Part shown: positions 13,770 through 63,726 of the stretch, piece by piece
Layout of the letters: every line of letters starts with the position of its first letter
Numbering within the stretch: position 1 is the first letter of the stretch
DNA from: Dyadobacter luteus
Lineage (GTDB): Bacteria; Bacteroidota; Bacteroidia; Cytophagales; Spirosomataceae
Direction: 5' to 3'
DNA: 64,000 nt
NCBI RefSeq assembly: GCF_003383615.1
Contig: NZ_QNUL01000004.1
Coordinates: forward strand, 124,001-188,000
The notes under the pieces: generated by a model
Database searches by the model: none
Told to the model about the DNA's origin: nothing
What the model saw: only the letters and a program-made list of their open reading frames with translations
Translations under genes and position numbers: made by a program

Positions 13770-15449
13770 CTATTTGCCTCTTGCCTGCCAAATGGCCTGA
13801 ATGGTTTTGTCAAGTTCTGCAGGTGCAGGCGCATTTTTCTGGGCAAATTTTCCGTTTGGCCTGATGATAGCATAGGTTCCCGACTCAATAGGGTTAAGCT
13901 TGAAGAGTAAATCTATCGCCTGCCCGCTGGACAAAAACATATGTACTCCTTTCAAACGATGCCTTATGATATATTGTTTTACCAGATCACCCGAAACAAA
14001 TACTTCATCGGCTGGAAGGTGAAGGAACAAAAAGACTACATCTGTCGGAAGCTGTGCTTGCATAGCGGCAATGAAGGCAAGATCATCGCGGCTTTTAGGG
14101 TCGTCAAAACTCCATTTGACCACATAAATCGTTTTTCCTTTGTAAAGATCCGTCATGCGGTTGAGCCATGTCGTACCTCTTTCATTGGAAGCGCTGATAA
14201 AATAGCCCGGCAGCGCCTCGGTAGGTTCTGTCCGCACATCTTTAAAAGCAATAAACTTCTCAATATTGATACTGTCCCTCACTTCCATTTTGACGATTTC
14301 ATCCAGAGAATTACGAAACTGAGGAATAGTCAGCGTGCTTTTGATATGCTGGCTCAATCTTAACTGCTGACTATAGGTATATTTATGGAAGTTGCGGGGC
14401 AGGAACCTTGCCTTAAGAAATTCTCTTGCGGTACTGTCAAACATTTCACCATAAAACCTGCTTTCTCTTTCATAACTGAACAACAGATTAAGCAGCATTT
14501 CATTTTTCGCATACATATTACTCAGGAAATCGAGTTCCACTTTTTCGGCTGTTCCTTTTGAAATGATTTCATCAAGTCTTTCTCTTTCTGATGCAGTAAG
14601 TTTGGATGAATTTGAGCGAATCAGATATGCCATTCTCCTGACCGGCAACGAGTTGTTGCGCGAGGGAATTGTCGCTTTTTTCTCATCAATTTGCCTGTCC
14701 GCGAAGGTACCGAAGCGGCTGGCCCAGGTAACTCGTTGCGTTGTCAATGGCGACTGGGCAAGGCGATTCAAACTGTCGAGCAAATCTTTGCCGAGCGCAT
14801 ACTGGTTTGTGAGGGCATATTCATACAAATTCTGAAGCATTTCGTCGTTGGCCAGCGCCTGTGCCCAATTCTTTAAAGTTGGGTCAACTATACCGGTTGC
14901 TGCTACTGCCTGTAATGCAGAAAGCTTAAGCTCAGCTCTTTTGCTGGAAAGACTTTGTGCTTCTGTCGGACTTTTTGCCCAAAAGGTTTCATAGAAACGC
15001 GTTCCCAGAACTGAATTAGCCCTGATGCGTTTTGCTTCTTCGTTGACCAGCGTGTAGTTCTGGTTATTGGCTTCAGCATTTACACCTGCGAAGTAAAACA
15101 AGCGATTTTTGCTAGCAAGAGAGTCTCCGTTGAATGTAATCTCAATTGTGCCGGGAGATCCCAGAAATGTAGCGAAAGCCTTACCGCTATAGTCCAGATA
15201 GATTTCCTCTTTTCCGTAGAGCATTGGTAATGAAACACGGAAGCTTCCGTCCGGGGCTAATGGCGCCTGTTTGCTCAGTTCTGATTGTGGCTGAAGTATA
15301 TTGTTTCGGGAAAAGGTGATGGAAGGAGCCTGTCTGTAAAGGCGGCCATTCAGATTCAGAATACGCCCTTGAATGATCAGGGAGTCTGTCGCAGCAAATG
15401 CTGATGCGGACAGGCAAACAAGGATGGCAAGTGAGATGACGAAGCGCAT
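13770..15449 (-). CDS. Secreted thioredoxin-fold protein lacking the CxxC active site
   Basis: A 559-residue protein with a signal peptide (LAILVCLSASAFAA). An N-terminal beta-rich segment (about 25-115) is followed by a long helical middle and a C-terminal thioredoxin-like domain (about 415-559: GKTIYVVKWSFDD, then DVVFLFLHLP and GTYAIIRPNGKF). Where TlpA-like proteins have WCxxC this one has WSFDDPK, so it cannot be a thiol oxidoreductase of the usual type. It lies 51 bases after nuoC on the same strand and could be read through from nuoBC. Function unknown; a periplasmic binding or scaffold role is inference. Confidence 0.7.
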   Translation of the reverse strand: MRFVISLAILVCLSASAFAATDSLIIQGRILNLNGRLYRQAPSITFSRNNILQPQSELSKQAPLAPDGSFRVSLPMLYGKEEIYLDYSGKAFATFLGSPGTIEITFNGDSLASKNRLFYFAGVNAEANNQNYTLVNEEAKRIRANSVLGTRFYETFWAKSPTEAQSLSSKRAELKLSALQAVAATGIVDPTLKNWAQALANDEMLQNLYEYALTNQYALGKDLLDSLNRLAQSPLTTQRVTWASRFGTFADRQIDEKKATIPSRNNSLPVRRMAYLIRSNSSKLTASERERLDEIISKGTAEKVELDFLSNMYAKNEMLLNLLFSYERESRFYGEMFDSTAREFLKARFLPRNFHKYTYSQQLRLSQHIKSTLTIPQFRNSLDEIVKMEVRDSINIEKFIAFKDVRTEPTEALPGYFISASNERGTTWLNRMTDLYKGKTIYVVKWSFDDPKSRDDLAFIAAMQAQLPTDVVFLFLHLPADEVFVSGDLVKQYIIRHRLKGVHMFLSSGQAIDLLFKLNPIESGTYAIIRPNGKFAQKNAPAPAELDKTIQAIWQARGK

Positions 15450-15500
15450 TTTATTCTGTATTGACGATTACTTGGACGAAATGATTAGGGGTAAGGTGAG

Positions 15501-16022
15501 CTATTCTGCCAGTCGCGGCCCATCTTCATATTTGACATAAATGCCATGGTATCTGTCCTGTGCCGCATAATCTTTTCTGAGCGGATGACCTTCCCAGTCC
15601 TCCGGAAGCAAAATACGACGCTGGTCAGGATGTCCTTCAAAATGGATACCCACGAGATCAAAAATTTCGCGCTCATGCCAGTCTGCAGTTCTCCATATGT
15701 GGCTCACGGTAGGTACGGCAGGCAGGGGTTCACACTCCGTATTACGTGGAAAAACAATTTTGATCATCAGGTCGTGACCGTAGGGAATTGAAGTCAGGTT
15801 ATAAACCAGCTCCATCGTATTCAGGCCGGGGCCGTTATCGATTCCGGTAATGCAAGCCAGGTAGTCAAAAAAAAGCCTGTCATCATTGTGCAGGAATTGA
15901 CAAACGTCAGCAATTGCATCGGATGGCAGAATCAGTATAGGCTGAGGCCCTTTCAGGTCTCCGTCTATTTTTGTCTGAGGAAAATGGTTTGTTATTACTT
16001 CTGTTATTTCCTGAAATGTCAT
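15501..16022 (-). CDS. nuoC: NADH-quinone oxidoreductase subunit C
   Basis: A 173-residue subunit C (30-kDa type) of respiratory complex I, part of the peripheral arm next to NuoD. The family signature is visible: HIWRTADWHEREIFDLVGIHFEGHP then RRILLPEDWEGHPLRKDY. It is separate and not fused to NuoD. It follows nuoB by 52 bases. The next gene downstream is not nuoD but a thioredoxin-fold protein, which is unusual, and subunits D to N are not in the window. Confidence 0.96.
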   Translation of the reverse strand: MTFQEITEVITNHFPQTKIDGDLKGPQPILILPSDAIADVCQFLHNDDRLFFDYLACITGIDNGPGLNTMELVYNLTSIPYGHDLMIKIVFPRNTECEPLPAVPTVSHIWRTADWHEREIFDLVGIHFEGHPDQRRILLPEDWEGHPLRKDYAAQDRYHGIYVKYEDGPRLAE

Positions 16023-51986: not shown

Positions 51987-53489
51987 ATGATACTTGATTT
52001 AAAGCAGTTTGAGATCTGGTTTGTTACCGGTAGTCAGGATTTGTACGGAGAGCAGACACTCCGGCAGGTCGACGAACATTCCAAAGAAATAAGCCAGTTT
52101 TTTGATAGGTCTGAAAAGGTGCCTGTGCGGGTCGTTTTCAAACCAGTGGTGAAATCTTCGGATGAAATATACAAGGTAATTCAGGAGGCAAACACCGCTC
52201 AGCATTGCGTAGGAATCGTAGCGTGGATGCATACATTTTCTCCTGCTAAAATGTGGATTCGTGGTTTGCACGCGTTACAAAAACCTTTACTTCATCTGCA
52301 TACACAATACAATCAGGACATACCATGGAACGAGATTGATATGGATTTCATGAACCTGAACCAGTCCGCACACGGCGACAGAGAGTTTGGGTTTATGATG
52401 ACCAGAATGAGGTTGAACAGAAAGGTGCTTGTCGGGCACTGGAAACAGGATCAGATTCTGGAAGGTCTTGGTCAATGGGCGAGGGTAGCGGTTAGTAAGT
52501 ATGATCTGAACGGCGCTAAGTTTGCCAGGTTCGGTGATAATATGCGCGAGGTGGCTGTTACAGACGGTGATAAAGTCGCGGCAGAAATGGCATTCGGTTT
52601 TTCTGTAAATACTTACGCGGTGGGAGATCTGGTGGCGGTGATTAATCAGGTAGGTGATCAGGAAACCGAAAGATTGGTAACTGAATACGGGGATACCTAT
52701 AAATTGGCAGATTCCTTGCTAAAGAACGGAGCGCAACGAGCTTCCTTGTACGATGCCGCGAGAATAGAATTGGGCATGAGACAATTTCTGACAGATGGCG
52801 GTTTCAAAGGCTACACCAATACGTTTGAGGATTTACACGGAATGAAACAGTTGCCCGGAATTGCTTCACAGCGATTGATGGCTTCAGGCTACGGTTATGC
52901 AGGTGAAGGCGACTGGAAAACGTCGGCGATGGTAAGGGCATTAAAAGTAATGGGATCGGGACTTGAAGGTGGAAATTCCTTTATGGAAGATTATACTTAC
53001 CACTTTAATCCGGCAAACAACCTGGTGTTGGGATCGCATATGCTTGAAATCTGTCCCACAATAGCATCTGGCCGTCCTTCCTGCGAAATTCATCCGTTGG
53101 GGATAGGAGGGAAGGAAGACCCTGTTCGGTTGGTATTTAATTCAGGTGCAGGAGCCGCTATGAATGTTTCACTGATTGACATGGGTAACAGGTTCAGATT
53201 ACTGGTAAATGAGGTGGAAGCGGTCGAAGCCGAACATGAATTACCAAAACTACCTGTTGCGCGCGTATTATGGAAACCTGCGCCTGATATACATACAGCA
53301 TGCGCCGCGTGGATTTATGCAGGAGGCGCTCACCATACAGTTTACAGTCAGAACCTGAATGCTGAACACATGGAAATGTTTGCGGAAATGTTTGATATTG
53401 AACTCGTGGTAATAGACCAGGATACAAGATTAAGACAGTTTAAAAATGAGCTGCGCTGGTCAGAAAGTCACTATGGCCGTAAAGTTTAA
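51987..53489 (+). CDS. araA: L-arabinose isomerase
   Basis: A 500-residue isomerase that converts L-arabinose to L-ribulose using a divalent metal. Recognisable signatures: [18 protein letters not shown] at the N-terminus, [40 protein letters not shown], the metal-ligand region [19 protein letters not shown], and MEDYTYHF then [11 protein letters not shown] with the catalytic Glu and His residues. Full length, in the araBAD operon. Confidence 0.98.
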
Positions 53490-53512
53490 TTTACTTAGTT
53501 AAAACCATTACT

Positions 53513-54217
53513 ATGTCGCAATTCAGATATTTGAAAGAGCTGGTCTATGAGGCCAATATGGAAATACCCAGAGAGCAGCTGGCCATTGTTACTTTTGGCA
53601 ATGTAAGCGGTGTAGACCGGCAGCACGGTGTAGTGGCGATCAAACCTAGTGGCGTACCTTATCACCGCCTTAAAGTGGATGACATTGTTATCGTTGACCT
53701 TGACAATAAGCTGGTGGAAGGAGACATGAGGCCTTCATCCGATACGAAAACACATACTTTATTGTATAAGCATTTTCCGGAAATAGGTGGTGTATGCCAT
53801 ACGCATTCGACCTATGCAGTGGCATGGTCGCAGGCGATGAGATCAATTCCGAATCTGGGAACAACTCATGCTGATCACCTGACCAAATCGGTTCCTGTAA
53901 CTGAGGTGATGTCGGATGAAGCGATAGAAAGGGATTATGAATTGGAAACAGGGCATCAGATACTCCATCTTTTCAACAGAGAAAATCTCAGTCCGCAGGA
54001 AGTAGAAATGGTGCTTGTTGCCTGTCACGGACCGTTTACCTGGGGAAAAGATCCTGCCAAGGCTATATACAATTCTATAGTTTTGGAGGAGGTAGCAAAA
54101 ATGGCATTTTTGACCCTGCAGATTAATCCGGCTACGCCAACCATCAAGCAAAGTCTTATTGACAAGCATTATTTTCGTAAGCACGGAAAAGACGCTTACT
54201 ATGGGCAGGGTTGTTAA
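53513..54217 (+). CDS. araD: L-ribulose-5-phosphate 4-epimerase
   Basis: A 234-residue class II aldolase-like zinc epimerase that turns L-ribulose 5-phosphate into D-xylulose 5-phosphate, closing the arabinose route into the pentose phosphate pathway. Visible: FGNVSGVDRQHGVVAIKPSG, SSDTKTHTLLYKHFPEIGGVCHTHSTYAVAWSQA with the zinc His residues, GTTHADHL, ACHGPFTWGKD(P/A) and HYFRKHGKDAYYGQ at the end. Last gene of the operon. Its stop overlaps a converging small frame by 4 bases. Confidence 0.98.
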   Translation: MSQFRYLKELVYEANMEIPREQLAIVTFGNVSGVDRQHGVVAIKPSGVPYHRLKVDDIVIVDLDNKLVEGDMRPSSDTKTHTLLYKHFPEIGGVCHTHSTYAVAWSQAMRSIPNLGTTHADHLTKSVPVTEVMSDEAIERDYELETGHQILHLFNRENLSPQEVEMVLVACHGPFTWGKDPAKAIYNSIVLEEVAKMAFLTLQINPATPTIKQSLIDKHYFRKHGKDAYYGQGC

Positions 54218-54877: not shown

Positions 54878-55273
54878 TTAGAGTCCGATGGAAAGCCTGT
54901 CTTTTAAAAGTGGAATATCAAGAGGTTTGGACAGCAAATCAATGATATTGGGGCTTGACTTTGCTCTTTCGATATCCCGGGAATCAATGGTGGATGAGAG
55001 CATATATATCTTGATCTTGCTTTTTAAGCGATCTGATACATTGTCATAACTGTCAACAAATTCAAAACCATTCATATCCGGCATCTGCAGATCCAGCAAT
55101 ATCAGAGTTTCAGGCAGGCGCTCTTCTTCCGCTATCAGATATTGAAGCGCCTCTCTGGCCGAATTGAATGTTTTTACCGAACGTGTCAGTCCACTCTTTT
55201 GCAGCAGCTTTTCGTAGATAAATAAGTCAAAGGCACTATCATCTATAAGTATGACATCTAAAAGATGATCCAT
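54878..55273 (-). CDS. Single-domain response regulator
   Basis: A 131-residue receiver domain: acidic pair DD at 11-12, phospho-acceptor Asp 61 in ILLDLQMPDMNGF, switch Ser in YMLSST, conserved Lys in LLSKPLD. No output domain. It begins 5 bases after the hybrid kinase and is the last gene of the five-gene run, so it is probably the exit of that phosphorelay. Targets unknown. Confidence 0.92.
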   Translation of the reverse strand: MDHLLDVILIDDSAFDLFIYEKLLQKSGLTRSVKTFNSAREALQYLIAEEERLPETLILLDLQMPDMNGFEFVDSYDNVSDRLKSKIKIYMLSSTIDSRDIERAKSSPNIIDLLSKPLDIPLLKDRLSIGL

Positions 55274-55278
55274 AGCGA

Positions 55279-56370
55279 CTATTTATTTATAGAAGGTATA
55301 CGTATCTCAAAAATACTTCCTTCACCATAGGTGGAGGTAATATCAATAGTACCTTCCAGTTTTGTAATCGCTTCATGAACTATGTACAGACCGATTCCCG
55401 ACCCGCTGTTAGTCGCACCTGCCCGGTAAAACATTTTAAATATTTTGTCCTGGTCAATCTCCCTGATCCCCATTCCATTGTCCTGAATAATTATCCTGGC
55501 GTATTCCGGCGTTGATTCAACCTTGATATGTATATAAGGATCAGCTTTGGAAGGGTCCTGAAACTTAACTGAATTATTGATCAGGTTACTGAATATAATT
55601 CTCAGCTTCATCACATCAGATCTAAAGACACCTTTCTCATCAATCTCGGAGGTAATTCTCAGGTTGCCAAACTCGGGAAGGTATTGGATTGTAGCCTGAA
55701 CCTCTGTGATCAGCTCATCAAAATTGATGTCTGTAATTACAGCAACCCCACGGGCATTCTTGTAGTAATCAATGACGTTAATAATGAATGTATCGAGTTT
55801 TTTAACCGACTTTCGGATCAATTCAAGATATTCATTTTGTGATTTGAGATCTTCTTCCATCAACGCTAGATTCACAATCCCGAGTACAGACATCAAAGGA
55901 GCGCGTAAGTCGTGGGAGGCACTGTAAACAAACTTGTCAAGTTCTTCATTAGCCTTTTGCAGTTCAATATTTCTCTGCTTCAGGTCTTCTCTTGTTTTGT
56001 AAATATCAAAAGCGTGGGTGATAGCATTTTCAACATATACATAGTCCCAGGGCTTATCAATAAAGCGGAATACCTCTCCCTTGTTGATCGCATCAATAGC
56101 TGCGCCTATGTCCGTATGTCCTGTGATCAGTATCCTGATGATATTGGGATACTGGTCTCTGATTTTTTCAAAAAACTGCACGCCTGTCATGATCGGCATA
56201 CGCTGATCGGCCAGAATGATGTTGAAATCTTTTTTCGTTAACAGTTCTTCAGCTTCAAGCACCGAGATAGTTGTTGTGATATCCCACTGTTTTCTGAAGC
56301 TGGCTTTAAACGACTGAAGGTTATGTTCTTCATCGTCTATATAAAGGATTCTAATTGGTTTCTCAGTCAT
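55279..56370 (-). CDS. Receiver-histidine kinase hybrid
   Basis: A 363-residue protein: receiver domain about 5-125 (LYIDDEEHNLQSF, phospho-Asp 55 in ILADQRMPIMTG, Lys 106 in FIDKPWDY), a coiled segment (about 128-147), the dimerisation/phospho-His domain (VYSASHDLRAPLMS, His 153) and the HATPase_c domain (NLINNSVKF, DNGMGI, SGSGIGLYI). No membrane segment. It overlaps the 7TM-DISM kinase gene by 8 bases. Its receiver is a close relative of the stand-alone receiver at 61883-62350. A cytoplasmic kinase that could take its input from the membrane kinase. Confidence 0.94.
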   Translation of the reverse strand: MTEKPIRILYIDDEEHNLQSFKASFRKQWDITTTISVLEAEELLTKKDFNIILADQRMPIMTGVQFFEKIRDQYPNIIRILITGHTDIGAAIDAINKGEVFRFIDKPWDYVYVENAITHAFDIYKTREDLKQRNIELQKANEELDKFVYSASHDLRAPLMSVLGIVNLALMEEDLKSQNEYLELIRKSVKKLDTFIINVIDYYKNARGVAVITDINFDELITEVQATIQYLPEFGNLRITSEIDEKGVFRSDVMKLRIIFSNLINNSVKFQDPSKADPYIHIKVESTPEYARIIIQDNGMGIREIDQDKIFKMFYRAGATNSGSGIGLYIVHEAITKLEGTIDITSTYGEGSIFEIRIPSINK

Positions 56371-58543
56371 TGATCGTCAAGATAGGGTTCTTTTTCTTTA
56401 AAATAGGCAGGGAAATTACAAATTCTGTTCCTTCTCCCGGCGCTGAATTTACATTAATTGTTCCGTTGTGAACTTCAATAATCTTGAATACAATTGAAAG
56501 ACCCAAACCTGTTCCTTCTCCTACCGGTTTAGTTGTAAAGAAAGGCTCAAATATTTTAGCCTTCACTTCCGGAGTCATTCCTGAGCCATTGTCTTTGATG
56601 GAAATGGACACATGATCAGGGCCGCTCATCCAGGTTTTCACCCAAATGATTGGTTCAGGGTGTTCTGTATCTTTCTGAAGCACATGAACAGAATTGGTGA
56701 TAATATTCATGAACACCTGATTGAGCTTACCTCCAAAACCTTCAACGTTAGGTATATTATCAAGATCGACAATCATCTTAAGTTTTGTTCCGATTTGATA
56801 ATTGAGGATAATCAAAGTCGATTCAATTCCTTCATTGATGTTGACCATGTTCAGATCTGTATCATCTACCCGCGCAAACAGCTTCAATCCTTTCACAATT
56901 TCAACTGTACGATGGGCTCCGTCTTCAATTCCTTTCATCAGGGTATTAAGCTCAGTTTTGAGGTAATCCGGATCAAGCTCTTCTTTCAGCTCTTCTATTT
57001 CCTGCAGCTGTTCTTCTGTGACGGTATTTGTTCCGGGGGGTAACATTTTTTCGTAAGCATCAAGAATCATCACAAGTTCGCCGATGTCTCTTCTGAGGGG
57101 GCGGATGTTGGAGCTTACAAAATTAATGGGGTTGTTGATCTCATGAGCAATACCTGCGGTGAGTTGACCGAGGGAAGCCATTTTTTCGGACTCGATCAGT
57201 TGAGTCTGCGTGTCTTTTAGTCGTGTAAGCGTGTCGATGAGTTCAGTGTTAGCCAGTAAAAGCTCCTTGGTTCTCTCCTGTACATTCTGTTCAAGCACCA
57301 CGTTTTGCTCTTTGATAATCCGCTCATTCTCTTTGGATATCAAAAGAGCCTGTTCCTGGGATAGTTCTTTCTCCCGTTTCAGAATATTGATTCTGTCTGC
57401 GAGTGCGAAGGAAAGTAAAATCACCTCAATAGCAGTTCCTGCCTGCATTGTATAATTGGTGAAGGTATTGTAGGGCAAAATGTTCAGATTACGGAGAACG
57501 AACAGTGCCAGTCCCAGAAAGAATACTGACCATGCTATCAGGAAATACATGGCCGGGCGGTACCCGTTTTTAAGTATTATCGCAGAAATAGTCAGAGCCA
57601 GAACGATAGAAGCTATACCGGACACATTCGTAAGCATAAAGCTGACCGACTCGTTGCCTGCCAGTTTGAAAACAACTGAAAGGAAATAGCATGCTATCAC
57701 AAGATACAAGCCCTGGTGAAGTACTGGTGTTCTGGTTCTGGTGGACAGGAAATTCTGAAAGAACAGTATTGCAAATAATCCGGATACCGCAGAAAAAAAT
57801 GTAGGTGAAAAGGTATTAAAGCCCGGCTGGTCAGACCACAATAATTTAAAACCGTATCCGGTTAGTGCTAATTGGGTGAGACCAATAAAAAGAATGTACA
57901 GTACGTAAAAGAGGTAGCTTTTCTCCTTGATCGAAAAGAACAGGAAGAGGTTATAGAACAGCATTACAAGAAGGATTCCAATATACACCCCCATCAGAAT
58001 TTCTCCTGTAAGTACTGTCGAGAGAAATCCGCTCTGACTTCTGAGAAACAATGGCAGCACTATCTGCGTATGCTCTCTGATCTTGATGTAGTACGTAGTG
58101 CTTCCGCCAGCCGGAATGGAGAGGATAAATGCAGGATTCTGATACCGGGTAATTCTTTTATCGAACGAATCGGATTCAGCTATTTTCTGAGAATGTCCGG
58201 GATCATTTGTATCGAAGAGTTCAATGTCGTGGATCATGGGATATCCCAGCTCCAGATAAAGGTTCTTGTGTCTCGTATTGTTTTGGACAGTAAATCTGAT
58301 CCACCAGGTGGAGTTGCTGAAGCCGAAGTTAGGGGAGACTTCTTTGCTTCTGGTAAACTGAAGCTGGTTTGCCTCACTAAAGGTGATCTGGTTGGTGGGA
58401 TCTTCGGCAATTTCCAAAGACTTACCTATCAGTATATCCTGACCTTTAAACTCAATCTGCTCCCCGTAAGTGACAAAAGATACGCTCAGGAGTAGAAAAA
58501 GCAGGAAGTATAGTCTCCGTAAATGCCTAAATCTTTGTATCAT
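56363..58543 (-). CDS. 7TM-DISM membrane histidine kinase
   Basis: A 726-residue sensor. Signal peptide about 1-27, extracytoplasmic 7TMR-DISMED2-like domain about 30-165 (STWWIRFTVQNNT, YLELGYPMI), seven membrane helices about 180-385 (7TMR-DISM), coiled coil 388-450, then HisKA with SLGQLTAGIAHEINNPINF (His about 467) and HATPase_c about 590-712 (NIITNSVHV, DNGSGM, GEGTGLGLSI). DISMED2 domains are thought to bind carbohydrate or other small ligands. The frame overlaps the upstream GNAT-like gene by 17 bases and the hybrid kinase by 8, strong evidence for one operon. Confidence 0.95.
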   Translation of the reverse strand: MIQRFRHLRRLYFLLFLLLSVSFVTYGEQIEFKGQDILIGKSLEIAEDPTNQITFSEANQLQFTRSKEVSPNFGFSNSTWWIRFTVQNNTRHKNLYLELGYPMIHDIELFDTNDPGHSQKIAESDSFDKRITRYQNPAFILSIPAGGSTTYYIKIREHTQIVLPLFLRSQSGFLSTVLTGEILMGVYIGILLVMLFYNLFLFFSIKEKSYLFYVLYILFIGLTQLALTGYGFKLLWSDQPGFNTFSPTFFSAVSGLFAILFFQNFLSTRTRTPVLHQGLYLVIACYFLSVVFKLAGNESVSFMLTNVSGIASIVLALTISAIILKNGYRPAMYFLIAWSVFFLGLALFVLRNLNILPYNTFTNYTMQAGTAIEVILLSFALADRINILKREKELSQEQALLISKENERIIKEQNVVLEQNVQERTKELLLANTELIDTLTRLKDTQTQLIESEKMASLGQLTAGIAHEINNPINFVSSNIRPLRRDIGELVMILDAYEKMLPPGTNTVTEEQLQEIEELKEELDPDYLKTELNTLMKGIEDGAHRTVEIVKGLKLFARVDDTDLNMVNINEGIESTLIILNYQIGTKLKMIVDLDNIPNVEGFGGKLNQVFMNIITNSVHVLQKDTEHPEPIIWVKTWMSGPDHVSISIKDNGSGMTPEVKAKIFEPFFTTKPVGEGTGLGLSIVFKIIEVHNGTINVNSAPGEGTEFVISLPILKKKNPILTIND

Positions 58544-59213
58544 AAATAATATCTAGTTCACCCTTGGGTCCTTTTTCTACTGCAAACTGGTTAGGGTTAT
58601 TGCGTAGATCAAGGATGCGGTCCCTTTCTTCAGTTGTTGCGTTAGGCAAATTTACTACATCTTTAATGACCAACGCGGTTGCAATCAGACTTTCCCTTGG
58701 ATAATAAAAGGTCCCGTTGTTTCCCAGGTCGCGTAATATCTCGAATCCAACTCTTAAACTGTTACGCAGGGTAGCAGGGGAGCAAAGTCCCATCATGTGA
58801 TCAACGCCAAGGTTAGCAGCAATGGCGATAGCAATTCTGCCTAAAAATATACTACCTATTCCGAACCCGGCTACTTCTTTGGAATTGAATAAACCACAGA
58901 ATTCAGCCAGTGTTTTGTTCTCATAATTGTCCATATAATCATATATGTTCGGGTCTATTTTGGCAATAGCGTCCTCCATGGGCATCTTCAGATCGTTGGA
59001 GCGTATCTGAACTCTTGTTCCACCAAATATTCTGTCCCCGTCTTCTGACTCCACAATGACCACGTAAGTCTGGTCATCATAAAGCCAGTTATGATTAGCA
59101 GAGGTTACCTTTTTTACTCCATAAGATTCCAGCACTTTTCTGTGTCCCTCAATATATCTCAGGCTGGTTTCAATGTCATCAGGAGATTTGTAAGCTCTGA
59201 TTTTTGCGACCAT
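58527..59213 (-). CDS. GNAT-like protein resembling acyl-amino-acid or acyl-homoserine-lactone synthases
   Basis: A 228-residue protein without signal peptide or membrane segment. N-terminal half: ALRY-type start (KIRAYKSPDDIETSLRYIEG), YVVIVESEDGDRIFGGTRVQ. Centre: LAEFCGLFNSKEVAGFGIGS followed by IAIAIAANLGVDHMMGLC and SLRVGFEILRDLG, the order of beta4, acyl-CoA-binding loop, helix and 'GF' motif of GNAT folds. Acidic residue before a variable loop and the overall length recall FeeM/LuxI-type N-acyltransferases. No search was run, so the family is tentative. It is placed between an E1-nitroreductase fusion (14 bases) and a kinase (overlap 17 bases). Confidence 0.5.
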   Translation of the reverse strand: MVAKIRAYKSPDDIETSLRYIEGHRKVLESYGVKKVTSANHNWLYDDQTYVVIVESEDGDRIFGGTRVQIRSNDLKMPMEDAIAKIDPNIYDYMDNYENKTLAEFCGLFNSKEVAGFGIGSIFLGRIAIAIAANLGVDHMMGLCSPATLRNSLRVGFEILRDLGNNGTFYYPRESLIATALVIKDVVNLPNATTEERDRILDLRNNPNQFAVEKGPKGELDIIYDTKI

Positions 59214-59227
59214 TAGATACTTTCTTT

Positions 59228-61501
59228 TTACAGGAATAAAATTTCACTCAACGGAAGCCGTTTTGTGGGAATCACCTGTTTTTCAGTTCTGGATAATTTA
59301 AATAAAAATACTTCTCTTTTATCGCCCTCTAATTTAGTAATACTTCTAAAAATCTCCCTAAGATTTGTCAACTTCTCTTTCTCATGATGATCAAGGTCTG
59401 TTCCGGACTCTAATCTTAGAAATAGCGATACAGGAGAGAAAACCGGTTGTAATGTATAACCCATCTGAGTCGAGCGGAGCCATAGTTTCTGCATATTCCT
59501 GCCGGCAAGGAAATAGTTTTCCACCGTTTCTTTTTGCACCCATAAAACACCAGCACATGATGCAGTCATAAGCGATTGCATCGTGGCCTGCACCACAGCA
59601 TTGCCGCCTCCCACTTTACGTAGGGCAGCAGCTACTTTCTGGTCGCGTAATACCGACAGGGTGGCTAGTATAGCAGGAGGGGTAGTGGCAGGCTGTAACG
59701 GAACGCCATCATACGTTGCTGAATAGTCTGTTGGTGTCCACCGGATATTTCGCTCAAAGAAATCGTAATGACCGTGTTCGTTGAGTATTGAAATCAAGTC
59801 ACATTCTCCGGCCAGTGAACCTATCTGAACGAGTTGTTCCCGGTCTGTGATGATCGACAGACCGACCATGTCCTGATCCTGCAGAGTTAACTGTAGATTG
59901 TGCACCTCTTGCTCAGAGGTTGGTTGGGCATCACCAAATGCCCGGTTGGTACTTCTGGTATGTATAAATTCAGCAAGTTCTTGAAAACTTACCGGTTCTG
60001 TAAGCTTGCTTGCTGATGAATGGAAAGAGACTACGGCCACCAGCTCCGAATCACTGCCCAGAGGGAAAATGTCCGCAGATACATTCAGTCCCATCTCTTT
60101 GCTTTTTAAAGTGAGGTTCTCGTAGGCTGCTCCAAGACTTAAATAAGCCGATAAATTGTCTACGTTCGCGAACGCAAACGAGCGGGAAGGGTCATGAAAC
60201 AGATGTAATCTGCCATTACGAAAGACCCATTTCCACGGTTGATCATTTCCATAAGAGGGAGCTGCACTTGCTGCCTCCACCAGTTGTTCAATCTGCTGTG
60301 AAGAAGGTATGCTGTTGGCCACTTTTTGGGGTAACGAATCACATATACGAATCGCAATTTCCGGATAGAATGGCAGTATACTTTTTCTGAAAATCAGTGG
60401 TTTTTCACTTATTTGCCGATTGGAAATGAGCTCTTCCAGATCAACATAATATCTGCCCGAATCCGTGAACTGATTCAACAGAATTCTCCGGCATACATCG
60501 GTAACCACGCCTCCGCCAAGTGTAACTGCGCTCGCCAACTGAGGCCATGTGGATATAGATTGTCCTACTTCAAGCAAAGAAGCTCTTCCGCGTACTGATC
60601 CTTTGTTGGGTTCAACAATTTTCATGACCAGCCCCAACCGTTCCTGAGGAAGTATGTTCCGGAATTTTTCATCAGGGATTCCTTTCAGTAAACCATGAAA
60701 AATGGGACGGGTTGGATCCAGATCAAATCTTTCGACATCCAGCATGCCTCTGTCGCTGGTTTCCATCACGACCGGAATATTGTTTTCTCTGGCAAATTGG
60801 CGGCTTGCAAGTTTTATCTCGACATCATCACACTCATCGATAAGAATGTCAAGTTTTCCACCGTCAAGAAGAAATCCAGGCAGATTTTGAGCTGTTATAC
60901 CATCAGTGAAACATTCTATTTCAATGAACGGATCAATTTCTGATATCTCCCTTGCAGTTACGATACATTTATTGAGCCCTATGTTATGAAGTCCGGTCTT
61001 GAGGCGATTCAGGTTGCTGAGTTCAACGGTGTCAAAGTCGGCGAGTTTCAGCTTACTGCAAATCCGTTCAGTTGCGATGCTGACTGCGACAGCATGGCCG
61101 ACCGATAGACCGATTATACCGATTTTCTTTTCCGAAAGCTCTGTCTGTTCTTCAGGAGATATTTTGTAATGGTTACGGCTGGTGCGTAATCTTACAAACT
61201 CTTCTCTTTCAAGTAGATGAATAATCTTGTTGTTCCAGGGATAAAAGAACCAGGTACCTTGCAAGAGGGGATCTTTATCTCCAAGCCAGTTGTTGTACAT
61301 TGTTTGCAATTCTTCCTCTGAAAAACGGGAACGCGGATGCTGGATTTTGAACAGTTCTTTCTTCTGAGAAGAAAATAAGTCAATTACAGATACCCCGGGA
61401 TATTCTCCTTTAAGCAGCCCGATTTCAGAACTGATACTATCGGAAGTTTTGTTTAAGGCAACAGGTAAAAATATTTTATCTAATTCTTCTATTTGGTACA
61501 T
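59228..61501 (-). CDS. E1-like (ThiF) and nitroreductase fusion, Rv1355c family
   Basis: A 757-residue two-domain protein matching the Rv1355c family. Residues about 1-120 are an unassigned N-terminal region. The ThiF/E1-like domain is about 121-345: KIGIIGLSVGHAVAV (Gly-rich loop, GxSxGH in place of GxGGxG), LKLADFDTVELSNLNR (155-166), DILIDECDD and VVMETSDRG. The nitroreductase-like domain is about 395-720, with AAPSYGNDQPWKWVF at its start. No CxxC zinc pair. The two activities, carboxylate adenylation and flavin redox chemistry, suggest modification of a small molecule or peptide. First gene of the operon. No substrate is known. Confidence 0.85.
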   Translation of the reverse strand: MYQIEELDKIFLPVALNKTSDSISSEIGLLKGEYPGVSVIDLFSSQKKELFKIQHPRSRFSEEELQTMYNNWLGDKDPLLQGTWFFYPWNNKIIHLLEREEFVRLRTSRNHYKISPEEQTELSEKKIGIIGLSVGHAVAVSIATERICSKLKLADFDTVELSNLNRLKTGLHNIGLNKCIVTAREISEIDPFIEIECFTDGITAQNLPGFLLDGGKLDILIDECDDVEIKLASRQFARENNIPVVMETSDRGMLDVERFDLDPTRPIFHGLLKGIPDEKFRNILPQERLGLVMKIVEPNKGSVRGRASLLEVGQSISTWPQLASAVTLGGGVVTDVCRRILLNQFTDSGRYYVDLEELISNRQISEKPLIFRKSILPFYPEIAIRICDSLPQKVANSIPSSQQIEQLVEAASAAPSYGNDQPWKWVFRNGRLHLFHDPSRSFAFANVDNLSAYLSLGAAYENLTLKSKEMGLNVSADIFPLGSDSELVAVVSFHSSASKLTEPVSFQELAEFIHTRSTNRAFGDAQPTSEQEVHNLQLTLQDQDMVGLSIITDREQLVQIGSLAGECDLISILNEHGHYDFFERNIRWTPTDYSATYDGVPLQPATTPPAILATLSVLRDQKVAAALRKVGGGNAVVQATMQSLMTASCAGVLWVQKETVENYFLAGRNMQKLWLRSTQMGYTLQPVFSPVSLFLRLESGTDLDHHEKEKLTNLREIFRSITKLEGDKREVFLFKLSRTEKQVIPTKRLPLSEILFL

Positions 61502-61791
61502 TTTTTAGAAATTATAATACATCTCCCGATACCATCATACATAATTCTACAAGATACGGATCAGGTATAACTATTCTTTGCTGAAACTGTAAGGTATCAG
61601 CGGACAAACAAAATAATTCTTAAGTGTGCGGGGTGCAATTTTAGAGAATTCCAACGGTGGATCAAAAAAAGACCAGCCGTACTCCTTGCGTAAATGTATA
61701 CTTCTATTGACAAGGAACAAAATATTTAGCAGTTTACCATTAATTGTTTACCATGAAGTAGTAATATAATATAGTTTTACAAGCGATGTAG
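61502..61791. other. Intergenic region between divergent signalling genes
   Basis: About 290 A/T-rich bases that must hold the promoters of the minus-strand operon and of the plus-strand receiver. I see no TAnnTTTG box for the operon and no strong inverted repeat. No ORF. Confidence 0.45.
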
Positions 61792-61799
61792 TACTTTTG
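61792..61799 (+). promoter_or_regulatory. -7 promoter element of the stand-alone receiver gene
   Basis: TACTTTTG (TAnnTTTG), 83 bases before the ATG at 61883. The -33 region is A/T-rich without a clear TTTG. Confidence 0.5.
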
Positions 61800-61882
61800 C
61801 ACTACTGGAAGGTTTTCTGAAAAGAAGACTATATTTACCCGCCTTTATTGGTTATACCTTAAAGATTAAGAAAAATACCCCC

Positions 61883-62350
61883 ATGGAACAGTCAGAAAAA
61901 ATCAGCATTCTATATGTTGATGACGAGATAAACAACCTGAATTCATTTAAAGCCGCATTTCGTAGAGATTTTAAAGTTCTGCTTGCTTCCTCAGGACAGG
62001 AAGGATTAGCGCTTCTGGAAAGCAACGTCGTGCACGTAATTATTACAGATCAGCGCATGCCGGAAATGACGGGTGTAGACTTTCTGATTGAAGTGTTGAA
62101 AAAGCACACAGACCCGATCAGAATTTTGCTGACAGGCTACACAGATATCAATGCTGTGATCGATGCAGTCAACAAGGGACATATATACTACTATCTGAAC
62201 AAGCCGTGGGATGAGCAGCAATTGAAAATTATTATCAAAAATGCTTATGAGATATTCAGACTAAGGGAAGAGAACAAAGAATTGATTAACAAACTTATTG
62301 ATGCGAATAATCAGCTCGAATTTTTATTGCGTCAGAAGCTAATTTCTTGA
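61883..62350 (+). CDS. Stand-alone receiver protein, RpfG-type
   Basis: A 155-residue receiver with a short helical tail: LYVDDEINNLNSF, phospho-Asp 56 in IITDQRMPEMTG, the Thr in LLTGYTD, and Lys in YYYLNKPWDE (about 108), then a coiled-coil tail (ENKELINKLIDANNQLEFLL). The 'ITDQRMPEMTG ... LTGYTD ... KPW' pattern is that of receivers normally fused to HD-GYP domains, but no HD-GYP follows. Close relative of the receiver in the hybrid kinase at 55279-56370, and divergent from that operon, which suggests a shared pathway. Confidence 0.92.
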   Translation: MEQSEKISILYVDDEINNLNSFKAAFRRDFKVLLASSGQEGLALLESNVVHVIITDQRMPEMTGVDFLIEVLKKHTDPIRILLTGYTDINAVIDAVNKGHIYYYLNKPWDEQQLKIIIKNAYEIFRLREENKELINKLIDANNQLEFLLRQKLIS

Positions 62351-62868: not shown

Positions 62869-63726
62869 TCAGGAGATGCTCTTGCTGAAAAGATCCAGGG
62901 TACGGCTCCATGCCAGTTTAGCAGCCTCGGGGTTATATCTGGTAGGTGCGCTGTCATTGAGAAATGCATGTTGTGCACCTTCGTATACATAAACTTCATA
63001 TTTGATGCCAGCAGCTTTCAGAGCTTCCTCATAGGCAGGAATTCCGGCATTGATTCGCTCATCCAAACCACCATAATGTAGCTGAACGGCCGCTTTGATC
63101 TTGGCTACATCTTTCTGTTCTGGCTGCCGTCCGTAGTAGGCTACAGCAGCATTCAATTTAGGATCATGTACAGCAAGTTGATTGGAAAGTGCCCCTCCCC
63201 AGCAAAAGCCCACAACCGCAGTTTTGCCATTACTTTCAGGACGTGCACGCAGGTACGCAAGACCTTTAATGAAATTGTCGAGATTTTTGGCCGGGTCGAT
63301 CTTAGCAAACAAGGCCCGCGCCTCATCTTCATTTTCAGGAGTACCTCCAAAAGGACCAAGTGCATCTGCGGCCAGTGCAGTGTATCCGGCTTTGGCAACT
63401 CTTCTGGCCACATCCTTAGTATGCGGATTCAAACCCCTGTTTTCATGAATTACCAGTACACTACCTTTTTTTGCGGTTCCCTTCGGGCGCACAAGGTAGC
63501 CTTTCATCGTACCGCCTTCCACAGGATAGGTAATATCTTCTGCAATAATGTCCTGATCCTGTTCCGATACAGTTGCCGCGTTGGCATAGCTGACTTCCAA
63601 TAACGGAAGTAACGCCAGTGCAGCACTGGTACCGCCTGCGAGTTTTGCCAGTTTTTTCAGGAAGGTGTCCCTGGACAGTGGCTTGTGGGTATACTCATCG
63701 AAAAGATTGATAATGCGTTGATCCAT
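62869..63726 (-). CDS. Dienelactone hydrolase family protein, exported
   Basis: A 285-residue alpha/beta hydrolase of the dienelactone hydrolase family. N-terminal part (about 1-50) has RDTFLKKLAKLAGGTSAALALLPLL, a hydrophobic stretch after basic residues, similar to a signal anchor. Catalytic residues: Cys in VVGFCWGGALS (nucleophile, about residue 174), Asp in LHYGGLDERI (about 219), His in EGAQHAFLND (about 251). These enzymes cleave dienelactone or other esters. Full length. Substrate not determined. Confidence 0.9.
   Translation of the reverse strand: MDQRIINLFDEYTHKPLSRDTFLKKLAKLAGGTSAALALLPLLEVSYANAATVSEQDQDIIAEDITYPVEGGTMKGYLVRPKGTAKKGSVLVIHENRGLNPHTKDVARRVAKAGYTALAADALGPFGGTPENEDEARALFAKIDPAKNLDNFIKGLAYLRARPESNGKTAVVGFCWGGALSNQLAVHDPKLNAAVAYYGRQPEQKDVAKIKAAVQLHYGGLDERINAGIPAYEEALKAAGIKYEVYVYEGAQHAFLNDSAPTRYNPEAAKLAWSRTLDLFSKSIS

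Follow-up and report, generated by a model that had tools for sequence, protein, structure and literature searches.

In the Bacteroidota genomes examined here, linkage between a predicted acyltransferase and a 7TM-DISM sensor histidine kinase is near-obligate. Because predicted builders of fatty amino acids are tied in this way to a sensor kinase and a relay, the gene set has the look of a chemical signalling system that has not been described before. We suggest that it is probably a self-contained system for signal synthesis and sensing, in which the kinase senses the acyl-amino-acid product of the enzymes encoded beside it.

The gene set was analysed in a 64,000-nucleotide stretch of the Dyadobacter luteus genome, here called the window, and all coordinates refer to this stretch. 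The host is a soil bacterium. The features are:

59228..61501, minus strand: gene 1, 757 aa, putative trzS-like gene encoding a fusion of a ThiF/E1 cyclase and a flavin nitroreductase-type (FDO) desaturase domain
58527..59213, minus strand: gene 2, acyltransferase with a modelled FeeM/AHL-synthase (GNAT) fold, predicted N-acyl amino acid synthase, 228 aa
56363..58543, minus strand: gene 3, 7TM-DISM sensor histidine kinase, 726 aa (PF07696, PF07695, PF00512, PF02518)
57344..58543, minus strand: sensor half of the gene 3 kinase, residues 1-400, with an N-terminal hydrophobic helix, periplasmic DISMED2 and 7TM
55279..56370, minus strand: gene 4, REC-HisKA-HATPase relay protein, 363 aa (Pfam/NCBIfam)
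54878..55273, minus strand: gene 5, REC1, single receiver domain, 131 aa (PF00072)
61883..62350, plus strand: REC2, divergent single receiver with a C-terminal helix-like extension, 155 aa (PF00072)
61502..61882, no strand: divergent intergenic region from gene 1 to REC2, 381 bp, possibly a shared control region

An earlier note on this DNA had described the five genes on the minus strand, and recomputation of the gaps and overlaps between them gave the same values (14, -17, -8 and 5). The families it named for genes 1, 3, 4 and 5 agree with the Pfam and NCBIfam domains, and its label "GNAT-like" for gene 2 is correct, yet visible in a structure model only. The five genes stand but the set was incomplete, with REC2 missing; the note also lacked the TrzS and TyzABC chemistry known from 2023-2025 and the swappable enzyme slot described below.

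Predicted enzymes and relay proteins

By sequence, gene 1 is assigned to the TrzS/Rv1355c family. It matches the NCBIfam model NF005901 ("Rv1355c family") with 713.8 bits over residues 8-755, above the curated cut-off of 476, has ThiF (PF00899) and nitroreductase (PF00881) domains in Pfam, and shares 30% identity with a Mycolicibacterium "Rv1355c family protein" in an alignment of 682 columns. Asp225 in the ThiF adenylation motif is invariant in 81/81 aligned fusions and in 21/21 aligned ThiF relatives in which no nitroreductase domain is recognised, and is also aligned in two actinobacterial Rv1355c-family proteins; it is equated with Asp217 of M. smegmatis TrzS by motif, not by alignment to the M. 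smegmatis sequence. M. smegmatis TrzS has the FDO residues Arg540 and Gln651; Arg520, which could not be matched to Arg540, is present in 79 of the 81 fusions and in both actinobacterial relatives. A role as a molybdopterin/thiamine or tRNA-modifying E1 was rejected because the ThiF, MoeB and TcdA models reach at most 61.5 bits, far below the Rv1355c equivalog model. According to the available part of the TrzS study (PMC12856293), TrzS converts N-acyl-tryptophan to an acyl-oxazolone, oxazolones are mainly retained in cells while acyl-amino acids are more abundant in the supernatant, oxazolones are discussed as linked to stress, and the group behind TrzS and TyzABC calls the physiological role of acyl-oxazolones a "major unresolved question".

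Gene 2 has no Pfam or NCBIfam match at E<=0.01 and no significant match among PDB sequences (phmmer best E 0.71, profile best E 0.44, unrelated chains). Judged from its AlphaFold model (pLDDT 88.2), it has the FeeM/AHL-synthase fold: in a Foldseek search of the PDB, ranks 1-6 are FeeM (2g0b; E 3.2e-9 to 6.7e-8, TM-score by target 0.70-0.78) and ranks 7-17 are AHL synthases. The model leads us to predict that gene 2 encodes an N-acyl amino acid synthase. LuxI-type enzymes have catalytic Trp, Arg and Glu residues; in the gene 2 alignment, which is not aligned to the LuxI positions, Trp43 and Glu104 occur in all sequences and Arg67 in 107/108. A LuxI/LuxR-type system is not supported for the window, with gene 2 sharing the fold only and no LuxR-type family match in the six window genes. 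Gene 2 is not similar to the hypothetical protein (259 aa) encoded beside a Rhodococcus TrzS relative, a protein that is not necessarily TrzA.

The gene 3 kinase matches PF07696 (7TMR-DISMED2; 98.3 bits), PF07695 (7TMR-DISM_7TM; 173.2 bits) and PF02518 (HATPase; 87.5 bits) above the respective cut-offs and HisKA (PF00512) with 23.6 bits, slightly below the cut-off of 26.9; this architecture of DISMED2, 7TM and kinase domains fits the definition of a 7TMR-DISM histidine kinase. The predicted phosphorylation site His467 is invariant in 108/108 aligned loci. The sensor half (AlphaFold pLDDT 92.0) has no match in a sequence search of the PDB, and its best Foldseek matches are to the RetS periplasmic domain (2xbz/3jyb); the DISMED2 fold is RetS-like and, weakly, like carbohydrate-binding modules. 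Among the domains compared between Dyadobacter loci, DISMED2 is one of the fastest evolving and REC2 is the most conserved.

In the relay proteins, the predicted phosphorylation sites Asp55 and His153 of gene 4 and Asp56 of REC2 are invariant in 108/108 aligned loci, as is Asp61 of REC1 in the 71/71 aligned loci having REC1. No DNA-binding domain was found in gene 4 (Pfam, NCBIfam) or in any window relay protein (Pfam), and no exporter is among the six window genes. A search of plasmids with gene 4 returned nothing specific: hybrid kinases and response regulators, 25-41% identical, made up most of the best 25 of 3,702 records. REC2 belongs to the gene set as its sixth member: it adjoins the operon, in opposite orientation, in 48/50 kinase-holding loci on genome contigs, placed either upstream and divergent or downstream and convergent. 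REC1 is less constant than the other members (called in 34/73 kinase loci in the family of genome G383). At loci L010, L011 and L023, REC1 is masked by antisense ORFs and present by tblastn.

In 24 other Dyadobacter loci, the intergenic region between gene 1 and REC2 is of comparable length (278-386 bp) and contains short conserved blocks, and in the window this 381-bp region is possibly a shared control region for the two genes. No match to a -33/-7 Bacteroidota-type promoter was found before gene 1 in this region of the window; elsewhere in the window there are 4 matches with 3.28 expected from shuffles, which is uninformative.

Linkage of enzymes and kinase across genomes

The proposal in the earlier note turned on whether the enzyme and kinase genes are linked beyond one strain, and a neighbourhood search found them linked in 50 of 53 related loci, the remaining three being cut by contig ends. 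Linkage was likewise found in 9/9 fetched loci from a sample of the phylum. Ten of the 395 genomes in this sample have an E1 at a score of at least 397 bits, and the nine besides the window's own all have an adjoining acyltransferase, 7TM kinase and REC-kinase. Searched with the kinase, the same 395 genomes gave 13 matches of at least 489 bits, the next score being 281; these are the 10 E1 genomes, one genome with a ThiF piece at a contig start (G109) and two genomes whose E1 slot holds an ICMT. Within one family, 76 of 244 genomes have the acyltransferase and the same 76 have the kinase, which is whole in 73 and represented in the other three by pieces beside the acyltransferase, cut by a contig end. 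In two of the 76 genomes, the genes lie on different contigs, with the kinase contig stopping 71 and 11 bp before the kinase. This co-occurrence is more than chance.

The spread of the set is patchy. In a family sample, the acyltransferase was found in 17/150 genomes, all from one genus of 36, and a gene-1 match was found in 48/48 genomes of that genus. Between loci, the gene order is permuted and REC2 switches side while linkage persists. Several loci and genomes are identical or almost so (for example L038 and L213, L059 and L214, L032 and L033) and, therefore, tallies from different collections are not additive. The generalisation that an E1 and an acyltransferase always occur with the kinases was rejected, as four Dyadobacter second-copy loci (L117, L138, L139 and L140) carry ThiF or ThiF-NTR without the kinase set; the second copy at L117 also has an acyltransferase with 32% identity to gene 2.

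The enzyme slot and the kinase sensor half

Across loci, the slot held by gene 1 in the window contains a ThiF-NTR, a ThiF, an ICMT or class-I methyltransferase, an FAD oxidase, or nothing, and some loci are without any tailoring enzyme; the acyltransferase and the kinase stay paired while the head-group enzyme changes. The class-I methyltransferase was recognised by a profile match in five loci, plus L178, where tblastn found acyltransferase and methyltransferase both present, and was checked against Pfam on three. At L177, a 648-bp gap lies between acyltransferase and kinase, and the slot was counted as "none".

The sensor half of the kinase co-varies with the enzymes while the catalytic half does not, and linkage contributes to this co-variation. 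The underlying table started from 140 loci, of which four were without a kinase and 28 were excluded (acyltransferase, REC-kinase or REC2 not called; under 3.3 kb of sequence upstream of the kinase; duplicates or incomplete rows); the 108 loci kept became 94 once rows at >=93% kinase-domain identity were dropped. Five of six methyltransferase-type loci, none of which had a called REC-kinase, were lost from the table, and the label and row shuffles in these counts ignore phylogeny. After controls, in 62 non-redundant ThiF-NTR loci, the correlation with NTR was 0.76 for both DISMED2 and 7TM, in contrast to -0.06 for the kinase domain and -0.15 for REC2. Modularity is imperfect in that the REC-kinase was also positive (0.34 with GN and 0.35 with NTR); for Dyadobacter alone (15 loci), REC2 and the kinase domain gave 0.38 and 0.28 with NTR. 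The REC1 control came out negative, as much so with the acyltransferase (-0.37) as with the sensor.

The correlation of the acyltransferase with 7TM exceeds that of NTR where the acyltransferase adjoins the kinase and is lower where NTR adjoins it; because the correlation depends on adjacency, block recombination contributes to the co-variation. REC2 is on the enzyme side in 47/62 ThiF-NTR loci, yet does not co-vary with the enzymes overall. Nearest-neighbour concordance with enzyme type did not single out the sensor (DISMED2 0.745, 7TM 0.819, REC2 0.787). A natural swap within a genus is seen between L186 and L198, which have different enzyme slots: the REC-kinases are 95% and the REC2 proteins 92% identical, while DISMED2 is 26% and 7TM 38% identical. 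In two of the four closest different-slot pairs, DISMED2 is 56% identical, not below the same-slot median of 53%, and 7/73 same-slot pairs have a DISMED2 identity below 35%.

A model for signal synthesis and sensing and its relation to known systems

The idea of the earlier note that genes 1 and 2 make a molecule detected by the kinase is supported, and it is strengthened by the TrzS family membership of gene 1, the modelled FeeM/AHL-synthase fold of gene 2 and co-variation of the sensor rather than the catalytic half. In this model, the FeeM-fold acyltransferase would couple an acyl group and an amino acid; the ThiF domain would, with ATP, activate the carboxylate and close the oxazolone ring, and the FDO domain would then desaturate the oxazolone in an O2-dependent step, as in TrzS. 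The acyl-amino-acid or oxazolone product would exit or partition in the envelope and be bound by DISMED2 and 7TM. Phosphate would pass from the kinase to the REC-HisKA-HATPase protein, REC1 and REC2, and these might act via protein contacts, like the single-receiver protein PhcQ on the LysR regulator PhcA in Ralstonia.

Regulators next to biosynthetic genes are common, and the kinase could instead sense an environmental cue (e.g. a glycan or envelope stress) and regulate acyl-oxazolone synthesis, the product being a membrane lipid, stress metabolite or antimicrobial. The likeness of DISMED2 to RetS and, weakly, to carbohydrate-binding modules fits this explanation, as does the description of oxazolones as mostly in cells and stress-associated in the available part of PMC12856293. 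We consider it unlikely, as the window relay proteins are without a DNA-binding domain, co-variation with the enzymes and the tailoring-enzyme type is a property of the sensor half and not of the catalytic one, and the acyltransferase-kinase pair is constant despite the change of head-group enzyme. Co-transfer only, i.e. a mobile selfish operon with co-variation arising from contiguous-block recombination without ligand-receptor coupling, would account for the confinement of the acyltransferase to one genus of 36 and for the dependence of the best 7TM correlation on which enzyme adjoins the kinase; it is decidedly improbable given REC2, which lies mostly on the enzyme side without co-varying overall, the persistence of linkage through permuted gene orders and changes in REC2 side, and the gene-1 match in every genome of the genus. 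Although E1-like and GNAT families have protein-modifying members, it is highly improbable that a protein or peptide (e.g. the kinase or a receiver) is the target of the ThiF-NTR/GNAT pair and that no diffusible small molecule is made, because the gene 1 family has a demonstrated small-molecule reaction, the nearest folds to gene 2 are FeeM and AHL synthases, and an ICMT or class-I methyltransferase in place of ThiF fits a small-molecule free carboxylate.

Building on the reading that the kinase senses the product of the enzymes, these loci may represent a Bacteroidota-wide modular lipid-signalling (probably quorum-sensing) family, in which an invariant FeeM/LuxI-fold acyltransferase and a conserved kinase relay work with head-group enzymes that can replace one another (forming or desaturating an oxazolone, methylating, oxidising, or absent), while a matching sensor half is swapped in. 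If so, acyl-oxazolones would be extracellular signals with DISMED2/7TM domains as their receptors; this recently discovered lipid class would gain a testable role, 7TM-DISM receptors a ligand class and Bacteroidota a signalling system based on a LuxI-like fold, while the natural head-group variants, which differ in their sensor halves, would form a series for studies of receptor specificity. Because the predicted oxazolone synthase comes with a receptor-like kinase and relay as fixed partners, the signalling hypothesis can be tested directly in environmental bacteria. A synthase-kinase coupling of this kind was not found among the matches listed in a literature search of titles and abstract starts, with subscription papers mostly outside it, nor did the titles and abstract starts matched by a search on oxazolone pathways describe one.

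The closest working analogue is phcBSRQ quorum sensing in Ralstonia. The available part of PMC8578825 describes the Phc operon as encoding a signal-making enzyme, a sensor kinase, a protein with REC and histidine kinase parts and a receiver without a DNA-binding site. To that extent, the window set is similar in having a sensor kinase, a REC-kinase and a stand-alone receiver without a DNA-binding domain beside presumably signal-making enzymes, and a signal that would be lipid-like. However, its signal module consists of an acyltransferase and a ThiF-NTR without a PhcB-type methyltransferase, and its sensor is a 7TM-DISM protein with a periplasmic domain. Where the slot holds a class-I methyltransferase, the relatives seem still closer to Phc by enzyme class, not by comparison with PhcB. 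We liken the system to PhcS/PhcR/PhcQ by layout, not sequence orthology, and do not file it as a Phc member.

The mycobacterial and rhodococcal TrzAS tryptazolone pathway similarly has a TrzS-type ThiF-FDO fusion beside an acyltransferase gene. In the available part of PMC12856293, c-di-GMP genes adjoin TrzAS in M. tuberculosis and no kinase is mentioned; by contrast, the fixed partners in the window set include a 7TM kinase and relay proteins. A GGDEF gene lies near the TrzS relative on the Rhodococcus plasmid L211. TyzABC of M. tuberculosis and OxzAB of P. rubra also combine an acyltransferase, a ThiF cyclase and a desaturase of the NTR superfamily, whereas the word kinase is absent from the text of PMC10404671, which describes them. 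FeeM and LuxI-type AHL synthases have the modelled fold of gene 2 in common with it, with no significant sequence similarity found; unlike in LuxI-type systems, a LuxR-type regulator was not found among the six window genes (Pfam, NCBIfam). The 7TMR-DISM kinases RetS and LadS share the combination of DISMED2, 7TM and kinase domains; RetS and LadS have attached receivers, whereas the window kinase is without one and has a synthase operon as its partner. Staphylococcal agr has a peptide signal and unrelated proteins but resembles the window set in that, between its specificity groups, the kinase core is conserved while the signal genes and the kinase sensor half change in concert.

The enzyme and kinase gene set across genomes

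Based on the analyses reported here, the best-supported reading of this gene set is a putative make-and-sense system, in which the acylated amino-acid product of the enzymes would be detected by the sensor half of the kinase. In this model, the acyltransferase and a head-group enzyme would generate a small acylated amino-acid molecule, the periplasmic-plus-7TM half of the kinase would sense it, and the kinase would drive a relay of three receivers with output by protein contact. The genes in question, in a genome of 6.95 Mb, are as follows.

59228-61501, minus strand: gene 1, trzS-like fusion of ThiF and nitroreductase (NTR) domains
58527-59213, minus strand: gene 2, predicted acyltransferase
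56363-58543, minus strand: 7TM-DISM kinase, with residues 1-400 (DISMED2 and 7TM) as sensor half
55279-56370, minus strand: REC-HisKA-HATPase protein (REC-kinase)
54878-55273, minus strand: single receiver REC1
61883-62350, plus strand: REC2, a 155-aa receiver, with 381 bp between its start and gene 1

The earlier note had described the first five as same-strand genes separated by 14, -17, -8 and 5 bases, and the window ORFs bear out genes, coordinates and spacing, all on the minus strand. Its domain assignments agree with Pfam and NCBIfam searches except for gene 2, which has no family match in either at E<=0.01. By eye, one flank (51987-54217) has genes resembling L-arabinose isomerase and ribulose-phosphate 4-epimerase, and the other (62869-63726) a dienelactone-hydrolase-like protein; ORFs of ~234 and ~496 aa lie downstream of the set in many Dyadobacter loci.

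A search with the gene 1 model in a 395-genome phylum sample returned 10 genomes at >=397 bits, the window's own included. In all nine others, the acyltransferase, 7TM kinase and REC-kinase adjoin the gene 1 match on the same strand, with REC2 in 7/9 and REC1 in 3/9 of these loci; ThiF stands alone, without a nitroreductase domain, in 6/9 of the fetched phylum-sample loci. A kinase search of the same genomes gave 13 at >=489 bits (the next scored 281), namely the 10 gene 1 genomes, a contig-cut locus with a piece of ThiF (L122) and two loci (L133, L134) in which a 213-aa ICMT-family methyltransferase replaces ThiF. A kinase search and an acyltransferase-profile search also covered the 244 genomes of a single family, possibly Chitinophagaceae, to which sampled genome G383 belongs. 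The kinase was found in 73 and the acyltransferase in 76, which take in all 73; in the three extra genomes a kinase start adjoins, cut by the contig end. In 71/73 kinase loci, the acyltransferase lies no more than 2.72 kb upstream of the kinase and on its strand; in the remaining two, the contigs stop 71 and 11 bp short of the kinase, and a different contig of those genomes carries the acyltransferase. The neighbourhood check that the earlier note called for thus finds enzyme and kinase genes adjoining well beyond this strain. Within the window's genus, gene 1 has a match in 48/48 genomes, 46 of them at >=700 bits, and the two weaker members (L136, L137) carry the full set; across the window's family, the acyltransferase is present in 17/150 sampled genomes, all within one genus out of 36. 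Thus, the set has a scattered distribution among genera and is apparently fixed in the window's genus.

A gene 1 search of named genomes gave 53 loci, 50 of which have the kinase. The three others are all cut: L049 is on a 3.6-kb contig, and L038 and L059 apparently correspond to L213 and L214 (contigs of equal length, gene 1 proteins 99.7-100% identical), where kinase starts were seen. Among the 50 kinase-bearing loci, 49 have REC-kinase, 44 have REC1 as judged by profile, and 48 have REC2 next to the set, on the opposite strand every time. Dyadobacter and Daejeonella have a divergent, upstream REC2, and Pedobacter and most Mucilaginibacter a convergent, downstream one; it therefore accompanies the set from either side. 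Short blocks of the divergent spacer (61502-61882), e.g. around AAATATTTTG, are conserved across most of 24 further Dyadobacter loci, and the window copy has repeated ATGGTAAAC; these blocks and the repeat are possible regulator binding sites.

Predicted signal-making enzymes and the swappable slot

The Rv1355c equivalog model matches gene 1 with 713.8 bits (cut-off 476). Rv1355c is TrzS (PMC12856293), and tyrazolones are made by TyzABC via separate proteins (PMC10404671). Tyrazolones and tryptazolone are reported to absorb light at about 360-400 nm. The aspartate of the adenylation motif (Asp225 in gene 1) is invariant in 81/81 aligned fusions and in 21/21 other aligned ThiF relatives. For gene 2, a structure model (37-sequence alignment, pLDDT 88.2) has FeeM chains as its best six PDB matches and acyl-homoserine lactone synthases as the next eleven. 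FeeM is an N-acyl amino acid synthase. Because these two groups top the matches, we infer from the model that the gene 2 product would be an N-acyl amino acid.

Alongside the acyltransferase stands an enzyme, ThiF-NTR in the window, that varies between loci. Of the 73 kinase loci in the 244-genome family, 66 have 3.5 kb or more of sequence upstream of the kinase; in these 66, this slot holds ThiF-NTR in 26, ThiF in 15, ICMT in nine, a class-I SAM methyltransferase in six (L178 included), an FAD-linked oxidase in two and no enzyme in eight; family names come from Pfam on representatives (two ICMT, three methyltransferase, two oxidase). ThiF and ICMT chemistry would both be aimed at a free carboxylate, as an N-acyl amino acid offers. 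By parsimony on a FastTree tree of relay proteins from 94 loci, the slot changed at least 20 times (shuffled mean 30.7, least 26), compared with 15 changes on the sensor tree and 18 on the acyltransferase tree.

Second ThiF or ThiF-NTR copies without the kinase set occur in other Dyadobacter (L117 8378-10306, L138 8950-11283, L139 9441-11375, L140 9341-11353); that of L117 adjoins an acyltransferase with 32% identity to gene 2, and those of L139 and L140 adjoin genes of 249 and 281 aa, respectively, the 281-aa one scoring for GNAT under the Pfam cut-off. The ThiF proteins of L155 (4190-6271, 693 aa) and L137 (9859-11760, 633 aa) possibly have a different tailoring domain fused to ThiF, or one that has diverged strongly: the C-terminal region of the former has no nitroreductase match in Pfam or a custom profile, and the BLAST match of the latter to gene 1 stops at residue 363. 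An M20-family peptidase follows REC-kinase in L113 (13219-14595), with ORFs alike in size alone at this place in L199, L209 and L210. The M20 family includes N-acyl amino acid hydrolases, and the L113 enzyme is a possible candidate for signal turnover. In L108, an inorganic pyrophosphatase gene (15045-15620) follows REC-kinase, with ORFs alike in size alone in L109 and L110; this enzyme would clear the pyrophosphate given off by ThiF adenylation.

Sensor, relay and sensor-enzyme co-variation

In a structure model of the sensor half (40-sequence alignment, pLDDT 92.0), the RetS periplasmic domain accounts for both PDB matches at E<=0.001, followed by weak matches to TMEM87A and Wntless. TMEM87A, whose entry is titled as PE-bound, and Wntless handle lipids, which is at most a hint. 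No variation occurs at the phosphorylation sites: His467 of the kinase, Asp55 and His153 of REC-kinase and Asp56 of REC2 are each kept in 108/108 aligned loci and Asp61 of REC1 in 71/71. Pfam finds no DNA-binding domain in any window relay protein. As relay variants, L122 (3244-4653) has its 7TM kinase followed by a REC-PAS-HisKA_3-HATPase protein, and L135 (8229-11097) has a 4HB_MCP-HAMP kinase, 45% identical to the catalytic part of the window kinase, then a REC-guanylate cyclase protein.

We compared pairwise identities in 94 non-redundant loci after removing the part explained by relay and kinase domains with cubic terms. Against the acyltransferase, DISMED2 (0.37) and 7TM (0.31) remain correlated, and the kinase domain (-0.05) and REC2 (-0.06) do not. 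Against the nitroreductase domain (62 ThiF-NTR loci), DISMED2 and 7TM both reach 0.76, the kinase domain -0.06 and REC2 -0.15, yet in 40/62 of these loci the gene next to gene 1 is that of REC2. REC1, which served as a control from downstream of the relay, shows negative correlations with both the sensor (-0.38, -0.17) and the acyltransferase (-0.37). Both inside Dyadobacter (15 loci) and beyond it (47), and under either gene order (41, 21), the sensor-NTR correlation persists, with p = 0.001 in each subset (999 row permutations; row and label permutations ignore phylogeny). At equal relay identity, pairs that differ in enzyme type tend to be less alike in the sensor (partial 0.29, 0.35; maxima of 300 shuffles 0.17, 0.15), and neither acyltransferase identity (-0.04) nor, clearly, kinase-domain identity (0.09) is lower. 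In matched triplets (means of 30 draws), the same-type partner is the closer one for 7TM (17.3 vs 5.7) and DISMED2 (16.3 vs 7.6), and the acyltransferase gives 9.5 vs 13.9. There are two natural within-genus swaps: L186, which lacks a tailoring enzyme, and L198, which has ThiF-NTR, are 95% identical in REC-kinase, 92% in REC2 and 80% in the kinase domain versus 26% in DISMED2 and 38% in 7TM, and L145 (FAD oxidase) and L180 (ThiF-NTR) share 85% identity in the acyltransferase and 28% in DISMED2.

Other results run contrary to sensor-enzyme matching as the sole source of this co-variation. With the acyltransferase next to the kinase, 7TM correlates more with the acyltransferase (0.71) than with NTR (0.62); with gene 1 next to the kinase, more with NTR (0.87) than with the acyltransferase (0.42). 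The strongest 7TM partner is thus the enzyme adjoining the kinase, which argues that exchange of contiguous blocks contributes. REC-kinase also co-varies (0.34 with the acyltransferase, 0.35 with NTR), as do REC2 (0.38) and the kinase domain (0.28) with NTR in the small Dyadobacter subset of 15 loci, and nearest-neighbour concordance with enzyme type does not single out the sensor. Only four different-slot pairs have >=80% relay identity, the two swaps among them; in the other two, L166/L177 and L037/L111, which differ in the slot by the nitroreductase domain only in the latter case, DISMED2 identity is 56%, not below the same-slot median of 53% (73 pairs), and DISMED2 falls under 35% in 7/73 same-slot pairs. 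L177 has a 648-bp gap of ICMT-gene size (9135-9783) between acyltransferase and kinase, possibly a remnant, in which no tailoring gene was recognised.

Comparison with known systems

Judged by titles and abstract starts, no paper among the matches listed in literature searches describes this coupling of oxazolone or N-acyl amino acid synthesis to a 7TMR-DISM histidine kinase. For signal synthesis and reception, passages of a Dyadobacter study name darA/darB and LuxR solos rather than this set (PMC9430724). The parts are of known kinds; their combination, the exchange of enzymes in the slot and the co-variation of the sensor are new as far as these searches show.

The nearest working analogue is Ralstonia phcBSRQ, from which the window set differs in not sharing the PhcB feature. 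A methyltransferase there makes a fatty-acid methyl ester signal, and the remainder comprises a sensor kinase, a protein with REC and kinase parts and a receiver that lacks a DNA-binding site (PMC8578825). PhcQ reportedly binds PhcA, a regulator, and stabilises it (PMC13320629); by this precedent, the output of the window receivers would be a transcription factor encoded elsewhere in the genome. In layout, the window set resembles phcBSRQ.
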